Source of the DNA: Prochlorococcus sp. MIT 1314
Lineage (GTDB): Bacteria; Cyanobacteriota; Cyanobacteriia; PCC-6307; Cyanobiaceae
Direction of reading: 5' to 3'
Assembly: GCF_034093315.1 (NCBI RefSeq)
Contig: NZ_CP139300.1
Location: forward strand, 310,001-374,000
Length of the DNA: 64,000 nucleotides
Position numbers and translations under genes: made by a program. Positions 28,593 through 31,439 of this stretch are shown piece by piece; position 1 is the stretch's first letter; every line of letters begins with the position of its first letter. The notes under the pieces are model-generated. The model was not told the DNA's origin. It made no database searches and saw only the letters and a program-made list of their open reading frames with translations.

Positions 28593-29345
28593 TTAAGCGA
28601 GTGCGGAGTAGTAAACAATTATAAAAAAATAAAAAAATAAAATTTTCAAAATTGGACTAAAGTTTCCCACTTGGGGTATGTGAATTAACCAATCGCTCAG
28701 ATTGCTTTTATAGGATAGAAAAGACCAAATAAAATAAGATATTTCTATTGTGATTAGGATAAAAACATTAATTAAATTAATATTATCTAATGCATAATAT
28801 TTATAGATATAAAACTGATCATCTAATTTAATATTATTAATTTGTAGATACCAAATAAAGAAAGAAATTAAAATAAAATTTACTAATATCAATTTCTTAA
28901 ATAAAAGCCTAGATTTCTTGAATATTAATAATAGAGATATAAAAAACATGAAAATGCTCAACTGAATAACATCAGGTTGTTTTAATTTAATATCTTTGAT
29001 AAATAAATTAGTTAGAAGATCAAAATTTATATAAAAATAATCAGCTATTAAGTACGAGAGAAATATCAAAATTACCGCTACTAAAAATAATAAAGCTTTC
29101 CCTTTTATTATTTTTTTTGTATTAATTTCATTCTTATTAAACTTATAGTACGTAAAGTTATTTAATGAGTTTAAACATATCAGCGATGGGCAGATAGTCC
29201 CGCTCAGATAATAAAGAATTGAATAAAAAGAAATATTATTAATATTAAATAAATACAAATTAAACCACTGCTTTTGAACAAATGGGAGAATAAGCAAAAA
29301 AGTAAGAGTAATTATTAACGTTGTGGAGTTGTTTTTAATTATCAA
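28593..29345 (-). CDS. Multi-pass membrane protein of unknown function
   Basis: The 250-aa product is extremely hydrophobic, with about seven predicted membrane helices and little soluble sequence. No catalytic motif or family is recognised; it ends LKILFFYFFIIVYYSALA. It follows the FtsH-like gene on the same strand after 39 bases, so the two are probably co-transcribed. Since FtsH proteins act on membrane proteins, a functional link is possible but is inference only. Confidence 0.7.
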   Translation of the reverse strand: MIIKNNSTTLIITLTFLLILPFVQKQWFNLYLFNINNISFYSILYYLSGTICPSLICLNSLNNFTYYKFNKNEINTKKIIKGKALLFLVAVILIFLSYLIADYFYINFDLLTNLFIKDIKLKQPDVIQLSIFMFFISLLLIFKKSRLLFKKLILVNFILISFFIWYLQINNIKLDDQFYIYKYYALDNINLINVFILITIEISYFIWSFLSYKSNLSDWLIHIPQVGNFSPILKILFFYFFIIVYYSALA

Positions 29346-29384: not shown

Positions 29385-31139
29385 TCAAACTTTCAACAAA
29401 TCAGAAGTTATCAATTTAAATAATTGTTTATCTATAGTTTCTTCGTTTAAAAGTGTATCAACTAATTTATCAAGTAAAATTCTATTTTTTTTCAATATTT
29501 CTATTGAATTATTTAACGAAATCTTAGAAATATTCATGATTTCTCTATCAATCCTAGAACTAGTATTCTCAGCTATTAAAGACTTTCTTCTAAATAATCC
29601 TTCTCCCATAAAAATATCACTATTTTCAGGGTTCATTGAAATTGGACCAATAATTGAAAATCCATATTTTGTAACCATTTCTCTTATGATATTTGTCGCA
29701 TAAGAAATGTCGTTTATAGAGCATTGTGTAATTTCACTTTTACCAAAAACTATTATTTCCGCAGCACGTCCTGCAAGAGAAATTTCAATTTTTGAAAATA
29801 AGAATTTTTTTGAAATCAAGCCACTTGAAATTGCATCTTCATCTGGACAAATTTTTGTATAGCCTCCTAGAGAACCAGATCTAGGTAAAATAGTAATTTT
29901 ATCTACTGATTCAATTCCATTTCTCACAGCTGAGACAATAGCTCTCCCTATTTCATTATAAGCAATAATTTTTTTCATATTAGGAGAAGTTATTAATGAT
30001 GTTCTAAGTCCAATAGTAATTTTATCTAGAGCGTTTTCTATATGAAAATCACTTATAAATTTGGATTCATTTCTTGCACAATGAATAGCACTCTCATTCA
30101 TCAAGTTTGCAAGATCTGCTCCAGAAAAACCAACCGTTCTAGTAGCCCAATATCCTAAGTCAACCTCGCTTGAAAGCGGTTTTGAAAGAGAATGAACTGA
30201 AAGAATTTTTTTTCTACCATTTAAATCTGGAAGCATTACTTCTATTTTTCTATCAAATCTTCCTGGTCTTAATAACGCTGCATCTAATATATCTGGTCTA
30301 TTTGTGGCTGCTAAAACAATAATCCCTGAATTATCAGCAAAACCATCTAATTCAGTTAAAAGCTGATTAAGAGTTTGCTCTCTTTCATCATTTCCACCTC
30401 CTATCCCAGAGCCTCTTTGTCTACCAATTGAATCAATTTCATCAATGAAGATTATACAAGGAGATTTTTCTTTTGCCTTAGCGAAAAGATCTCGTACACG
30501 ACTTGCACCAACACCAACAAAAAGTTCTACAAACTCTGATGCTGCTATTGAGAGAAAAGGCACTCCCGATTCACCAGCAATAGCTTTAGCCAATAATGTT
30601 TTACCAGTTCCAGGTGGGCCAATTAAAAGAACTCCTTTAGGAACTTTTGCTCCAAGATTTTCAAACCTTTTTGGTTCCTTCAAGAAGGTTATTACCTCTT
30701 TTAATTCTTCAGCGGCTTCAGGAACACCAGCTACATCATCAAATCTCGTATCAACATCATCAATAGTTATAAATTTAGCTTGATTTTTGCTAAAACCAAA
30801 AGCTCTAGAAGCTAATTTTGATGTACTCCTGAAAATTAAAACTATTGATAATATAAAAATAAGGAAAAGACTAATTGAGGCAAATGAATTAGCTGCAACA
30901 GATTCTTTTTTACTATTGTTAATGGTAAGTTCTACTTTATTTTCAGTAGCCTTTTCAAGGATTAATTGATCATTATAAAGTATAGGGATTTTGAATTTAT
31001 CACCATTTTTATACAAAACATCTATTTCTCTCTGTCTAGGGTAGAAAAATATAGATTCTATATTTCCCGTTTCTATATCTTCTAGAAGATCTGAATAACT
31101 TGATTTAGATTTTGAATATGAGAATTTTGGTCTAAACAC
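29385..31139 (-). CDS. FtsH-like AAA+ protein lacking the zinc-protease motif
   Basis: FtsH proteins are membrane AAA+ unfoldases with a C-terminal zinc protease. This 584-aa member keeps the ATPase: Walker A GPPGTGKT (174-181), Walker [10 protein letters not shown] (228-236), and the second region of homology [20 protein letters not shown]. The HExxH zinc site is replaced by N395-E-I-G-R399 (in [12 protein letters not shown]), so both zinc histidines are lost, while the third-ligand Asp (D477) remains. It begins at GTG with [12 protein letters not shown], equivalent to the segment after the first membrane helix of other FtsH proteins. Only one membrane helix (about 85-103) is present, and an in-frame stop three codons upstream excludes an extension. 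It should unfold or hold substrates but not cut them. Confidence 0.9.
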
Positions 31140-31268
31140 TAATCTTTATAAGTGATTTATAAAGCATATAAGCTTATTTAAAAAATTGAGGTATATACAA
31201 AATATACTCAAATATTTTGGAGATAACCACTTAAAGGTTATATTATTATATGTAGATATAGAAGATGA

Positions 31269-31439
31269 ATGGCTGTACCAAAGAAGAAAAAATCAAAGAG
31301 CAAAAGAAATCAGAGACATGCTGTCTGGAAGGGGAAAGCAGCATTAGCGGCTCAAAAGGCTATTTCTTTAGGCAAATCAGTCTTAACTGGGAAAGCTCAA
31401 GGTTTTGTTTACCCTATTGAAGAAGAGGAAGAAGAATAA
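31269..31439 (+). CDS. rpmF: 50S ribosomal protein L32
   Basis: The 56-aa protein begins [20 protein letters not shown], the L32 signature, and ends in an acidic run of six glutamates. It has no zinc-binding cysteines. It starts at the ATG at 31269, 129 bases from the divergent FtsH-like gene, and stops three bases before the convergent ycf20. A TATATTATTAT tract about 25 bases upstream may be its -10 region. Confidence 0.95.

Follow-up and report, generated by a model that had tools for sequence, protein, structure and literature searches.

What does an FtsH homologue do once its zinc-protease site is gone? Many bacteria depend on FtsH for survival, and in cyanobacteria it drives the repair of photosystems. 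The question is raised by a gene, ftsH4, in a 64,000-nt stretch of the Prochlorococcus sp. MIT 1314 genome (GCF_034093315.1, NZ_CP139300.1, positions 310,001-374,000 of the forward strand), which we call the window and to which all coordinates refer. The gene and its features are as follows.

29385..31139, minus strand: protease-dead ftsH4 (orthologue of cyanobacterial FtsH1), open reading frame of 584 aa with a GTG start
29943..29957, minus strand: destroyed HExxH, N395-E-I-G-R399 (NEIGR), from the translation and alignment
29709..29711, minus strand: D477, third zinc-ligand position by alignment; D here, D/E/N/Q/H across the dead clade
30597..30620, minus strand: Walker A GPPGTGKT, residues 174-181, motif intact
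30507..30521, minus strand: pore loop FVGVG, residues 207-211, motif intact
30432..30455, minus strand: Walker B IIFIDEID, residues 229-236, motif intact
30252..30308, minus strand: second region of homology (SRH), arginine-finger region, residues 278-296, motif intact
30831..30890, minus strand: only transmembrane helix, at about residues 84-103 and corresponding to TM2, by hydropathy; model helix 81-113
30924..31103, minus strand: FtsH_ext-like N-terminal domain, residues 13-72 (Pfam PF06480, E 6.9e-6)
31146..31148, minus strand: in-frame TAA barring upstream extension, three codons ahead of the GTG

The ftsH4 product keeps the AAA and M41 domains without the zinc site

The product matches Pfam AAA, AAA_lid_3, Peptidase_M41 (PF01434, 1e-42) and FtsH_ext. 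The AAA domain, with Walker A, Walker B and SRH, and the M41 fold domain C-terminal to it are both present. The HExxH of the expected HExxH-plus-Asp zinc site reads NEIGR, and the protein is therefore no zinc protease by its own site; of the two N-terminal membrane helices expected of an FtsH, only one strong segment is found. The initial annotation had read both zinc histidines as gone, and the translation agrees exactly on 29957-29943. In an alignment with the solved FtsH chain 7tdo, residues N395, R399 and D477 lie opposite Y, H and D, respectively, 7tdo itself being YEAGH at this site. With 643.9 bits, the ftsH4 product clears the 600-bit cut-off of NCBIfam TIGR01241 (zinc metalloprotease FtsH) and would be labelled a protease by family-based annotation; L317, a far more diverged dead copy, falls below the cut-off at 511.4 bits. 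The MIT 1314 genome (1,704,447 bp, one contig) contains four M41 matches, and the three other FtsH genes keep HEAGH, HEVGH and HEVGH.

Around the gene, a 250-aa hydrophobic open reading frame (28593-29345, minus strand) lies directly downstream and matches no Pfam or NCBIfam family at E 0.001. Upstream and divergent is an open reading frame at 31269-31439 (plus strand) that we take from its sequence to be rpmF; the same layout was seen in 8 of 9 other loci examined.

The zinc site is lost in every orthologue read from five genera

HExxH is absent from all 78 orthologues read from the genus of the window (g1, n = 53) and four related genera (g22, n = 2; g7, n = 10; g32, n = 11; g2, n = 2), a count that leaves out L111, which comes from the same genome as L014. 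Aligning the orthologues at this position, as the initial annotation had proposed, thus brought up no intact copy within the dead clade (0/78), and a sequencing error or recent loss in MIT 1314 is rejected. Among the 78, position 395 is N in 59, Q in 12, H in 5, Y in 1 and R in 1, and position 396 is E in 64, I in 11, and T, Q and N in 1 each. Position 399 is Arg in 60, Lys in 17 and Ile in 1, i.e., Lys/Arg in 77. The third ligand position reads D in 60, E, N and Q in 5 each and H in 3; the earlier statement that D477 is intact alongside Walker A, Walker B and the arginine-finger region thus holds for the window protein and does not extend to the clade, where D477 is missing in 18 sequences, nine of them from g7. 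The most diverged dead FtsH is L317, from genome G151, which has SYRNASKAL at the site and an end branch of 2.13; its ATPase residues are still kept.

Outside the dead genera, HE..H together with D477 was found in 46/46 rows (40 from Cyanobiaceae and 6 from other cyanobacterial families) and HExGH in 20/20 additional Cyanobiaceae, bringing the intact orthologues read from other Cyanobiaceae genera to 60 of 60. These readings cover 77 of the 138 family genomes outside the window's genus (60 intact, 17 dead); the 61 unread ones include three in which no orthologue was found, and eight further dead rows came from separate searches. Searches of g7, g22 and g2 found the orthologue in 10 of 14, 2 of 3 and 2 of 3 genomes, respectively, G338 having end-of-contig pieces only. 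In the window's genus, some FtsH match was obtained in 150 of the 151 genomes that were searched, with the orthologue of the window gene at 73-93% identity. A degenerate DNA pattern for AYNExGRA hit 193 of the 266 genomes of the genus; among the 87 with a completeness of 90% or more, it hit 81. A reversed control pattern gave 0 matches in the rows listed. Follow-up of the 73 pattern-less genomes covered the six near-complete ones, drafts of 20-50 contigs, and no ftsH4 orthologue was found in them.

As a baseline, we drew 80 FtsH loci across bacteria with patterns common to all FtsH, mostly from unrelated bacteria (the scan also supplied rows for the fold alignment). HExGH was kept in 79 of them (72 scored by script, 7 by eye), so the lost site is not a matter of chance; the sole exception was another Prochlorococcus orthologue, from Prochlorococcus sp. 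AG-442-M23. A phage origin was rejected: the best 80 of 112 viral-contig relatives are 41-50% identical and keep HExxH in 80/80. ftsH4 is a fixed pseudoprotease and reflects neither an error nor a recent loss.

We take the dead clade to comprise the high-light, LLI and LLII/III Prochlorococcus, and the intact set to comprise MIT9313 (LLIV), several other small-genome genera and Synechococcus. On the same footing, genomes G015, G022, G156, G198 and G218 are presumably MED4, MIT9515, SS120, MIT9211 and NATL2A, respectively, and G192, G289 and G161 are presumably MIT9313, CC9605 and RCC307. If G192 is indeed MIT9313, a strain with chlorophyll b, its intact site makes a link between the lost site and chlorophyll b improbable.

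One loss on the gene tree, probably beginning with the second histidine

We built a tree of 73 rows with the motif columns removed, after setting aside the majority of the rows from the genus and a small number of near-duplicates; its counts exclude L004 and the genomes' own paralogues. On this tree the intact site changes to the lost state once, and the 32 dead rows are monophyletic (SH-aLRT 97). Position 399 requires 2 changes and His395 requires 3. Five sequences retain His395 and Glu396 while carrying Lys/Arg399, and the second zinc ligand was therefore probably lost first, its histidine becoming Lys/Arg before the first histidine went. The first histidine would then have been lost later, and more than once.

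A quick 105-row tree, with a midpoint root and no plant rows, again placed the dead rows in one clade (SH-aLRT 99), adjoining the intact genus g29. It separated the Cyanobiaceae FtsH4 together with other cyanobacterial FtsH1 from the FtsH2, FtsH3 and FtsH4 groups (SH-aLRT 100); its rows carry the customary FtsH1-4 labels. By the gene tree, then, a single loss of the zinc site took place in the common ancestor of g1 and the four related genera. In a tree of FtsH2 and FtsH3 the dead genomes did not come out together, the high-light genomes standing apart from the low-light dead ones, and a constraint joining them was not rejected (p-AU 0.299). The single origin thus rests on the FtsH4 gene tree and on the Prochlorococcus phylogeny.

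The dead gene is under purifying selection

Walker A Lys180/Thr181, Walker B Asp233/Glu234, pore Phe207 and SRH Arg281/291/294 are kept in all 78 dead orthologues. Selection was measured, as the initial annotation had suggested: dN/dS of high-light ftsH4 is 0.092 overall, and 0.113, 0.052 and 0.137 for the N-terminal part, AAA and M41, respectively (1,236 of 1,378 pairs inside the dS limits; the pairs are not independent). Intact genera gave overall/AAA/M41 values of 0.104/0.056/0.116 (g5), 0.075/0.029/0.095 (g12) and 0.133/0.069/0.173 (g4), from 3-6 pairs each, g19 having too few pairs inside the limits. By this comparison, the window's genus shows no release of M41 from constraint relative to AAA. 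A high value, 0.258 (dS about 1.5), was obtained in g7. The gene is under purifying selection and not strongly relaxed.

In the same genomes, FtsH2 and FtsH3 nonetheless evolve several times more slowly than dead ftsH4, with dN/dS of 0.046 and 0.036 versus 0.199 in M41 and 0.020 and 0.017 versus 0.077 in AAA. For M41, path lengths from outside rows are 3.48 in dead rows versus 1.83 in intact low-light ones (1.9x); for AAA they are 1.26 versus 0.82 (1.5x). With thresholds picked without a prior plan, column 399 is the only class switch among 584 columns, being constantly His in 41 intact rows and K/R in 31 of 32 dead rows, and 15 columns are freed in dead rows, 9 of them in M41 and one of them that of the catalytic Glu396.

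The first membrane helix was lost before the active site

The initial annotation had pointed to the missing first helix and to the stop codon that rules out an upstream extension. Both observations stand, the only strong hydrophobic segment of the window protein being at about residues 84-103. None of the Cyanobiaceae orthologues listed, intact or dead, has its own strong hydrophobic segment ahead of the N-terminal domain; upstream open frames gave eleven peaks above 1.2 in nine rows, of which seven overlap the antisense rpmF and four are weak (1.24-1.43). Loss of TM1 as part of the inactivation is rejected, since intact-site Cyanobiaceae relatives lack TM1 as well, and the helix was therefore lost before the active site. 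Among six FtsH1 proteins from other cyanobacterial families, five have an N-terminal segment above 1.3 and L211 has none above it. By eye, most N-terminal segments among L195, L199, L202, L206, L211 and L214 are followed by a PALAQ/GLAQ-like stretch resembling a signal-peptidase site.

Structure model

AlphaFold2 with a 40-row alignment gave a best model of mean pLDDT 81.6 and pTM 0.65 (the other four, 68.2-74.3), and an intact Cyanobium homologue was modeled at 80.8. Within M41 of the window protein, residues 505-518 are below 50 and most others above 70. Of the 50 PDB matches listed, chains of bacterial FtsH are 43-49% identical and chains of the chloroplast Ycf2-FtsHi/Orf2971-FtsHi motors 24-37% identical. 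A salt bridge between Lys/Arg399 and Asp477 in place of the zinc would be attractive, although D477 is absent in 18 of the 78 dead orthologues.

A proposed non-cutting subunit alongside active FtsH3

With moderate confidence, we propose that the ftsH4 product joins the still-active FtsH3 in a mixed hexamer, as a subunit that is driven by ATP and does not cut. Dead FtsH4 would most likely still bind and hydrolyse ATP and would thread substrate, the FtsH3 sites alone would do the cutting, and such an FtsH4/FtsH3 hexamer would have about half its active sites; Lys/Arg399 may have a structural role. The candidate partner is intact: FtsH3 keeps HE[AS]GH in 29/29 loci, 15 of them from dead-clade genomes, and FtsH2 keeps HExGH in 29/29, 16 of them from dead-clade genomes. 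The Synechocystis FtsH1/3 complex is described as an essential heterocomplex with FtsH1 of type B (PMC11287208), and for Arabidopsis PMC6019477, citing Zhang 2010, states that not all catalytic sites are needed. PMC6300248 names picocyanobacterial FtsH4 as the homologue of Synechocystis FtsH1 while calling the homology less obvious. Against this reading stand the fast evolution of the dead gene, its high dN/dS in g7 and the FtsH2 and FtsH3 tree described above; in addition, FtsH4 is not among the main MED4 transcripts named in section 22 of PMC6300248, and a metaproteome figure in PMC11262661 has FtsH1-3 only. A more tentative elaboration, which we consider possible and rather doubtful, is that the fixed Lys/Arg sits at the metal's charge position, was selected after zinc loss and holds the dead M41 together, leaving FtsH1/FtsH3 permanently half-active.

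The initial annotation had suggested an unfoldase or a regulatory subunit mixed into hexamers. A homohexamer working on its own, which would unfold or dislocate membrane proteins or act as their chaperone while leaving them uncut, like the chloroplast Ycf2-FtsHi motors, strikes us as unlikely. ATPase residues kept in 78/78 while the active-site columns drift would fit it equally well, and the model matches both FtsH chains and Ycf2-FtsHi motor chains; set against it are the lower identity of the motor chains among the matches listed and the account of Synechocystis FtsH1 as a heterocomplex subunit with FtsH3 (PMC11287208). Mixing into hexamers with FtsH3 is accordingly the better inference than a lone unfoldase. 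A subunit that lowers or tunes FtsH3 proteolysis, as a brake or substrate-selecting decoy and not as a threading driver, is improbable in our estimate: intact FtsH2 and FtsH3 would leave a dead partner an output to adjust, but a passive decoy would have no need of the pore Phe207 and Walker B Glu234 found in all 78 orthologues.

Slow decay toward gene loss would account for evolution faster than in the paralogues, for the very long branch in G151, and for the failure to find ftsH4 in 6 of 87 near-complete genus genomes and in G163, G194 and G265. Yet dN/dS is about 0.09, no internal stops occur among the genus matches listed, and the orthologue is present in G151 and in the single-contig genomes of the genus and family searches. 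The six near-complete genomes are the fragmented drafts noted above; in G265 just 285 bases separate the neighbour gene from the end of a contig, and from G163 and G194 the neighbour is missing as well, so that these three absences are probably assembly gaps. We regard decay as quite improbable. Least credible of all would be residual or alternative hydrolysis, for example through a metal bound by E396 and D477 together with further residues; these two are kept in 64 and 60 of the 78, respectively, but E396 is lost in 14, both histidines in 73, and Lys/Arg399 stands in 77.

Relation to known systems

With the cutting site gone from one of two presumed partners across an abundant lineage, the number of active sites needed per FtsH hexamer becomes directly testable, and so does the role of the ATPase without cutting sites. 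The findings point to a bacterial pseudoprotease origin apart from chloroplast FtsHi and warn that ftsH4-type genes can wrongly carry a protease label, TIGR01241 being passed. The half-active hexamer, if true, would be a natural, ocean-scale parallel to the dead-site experiment in Arabidopsis; it would also mean that a bacterial FtsH complex contains a pseudoprotease as a regular part.

The ftsH4 of G156, the genome that we take to be SS120, reads NEAGK. One FtsHi has been reported in P. marinus SS120 (passages in PMC6460958 and PMC8197885), very likely the same gene, and none in the chlorophyll a cyanobacteria examined there (PMC6460958); these passages concern one strain, set chlorophyll b against chlorophyll a cyanobacteria, and do not take up orthology, motif history or selection. 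FtsHi in SS120 is thus already briefly in print; we found no account of the clade-wide fixation and the Lys/Arg switch in the open-licence literature searched.

In plants and algae, chloroplast FtsHi (M41) resemble ftsH4 in that AAA+ is kept, HExxH is broken and active FtsH occurs in the same cell. They have been solved as hetero-motors with Ycf2 (by PDB titles). The Arabidopsis motifs are TEVGV, NEAAM, REAAV and WAAGR, with a third ligand of Y/T/S/E, or are missing in FtsHi3 (PMC11266112 Table 2); dead ftsH4, in contrast, is mostly NExGR with D and lies inside cyanobacterial FtsH1. Because it nests there, the likeness to plant FtsHi is probably functional, and dead ftsH4 probably arose separately, on a tree that holds no plant rows. 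The view of the gene as a bacterial FtsHi counterpart holds in the functional sense (AAA kept, HExxH lost, fixed in the clade).

Synechocystis FtsH1, of the FtsH1/3 complex, shares with ftsH4 its place in the cyanobacterial FtsH1 group; ftsH4 differs from it in having neither the active site nor a hydrophobic segment before the N-terminal domain. A more distant likeness is offered by the mitochondrial processing peptidase, whose alpha subunit works with an active partner, has a fold unrelated to FtsH and is not ATP-driven. This M16 subunit, too, is inactive and carries Arg at the second zinc-ligand position, in HxxDR (PMC11266112 Table 2).
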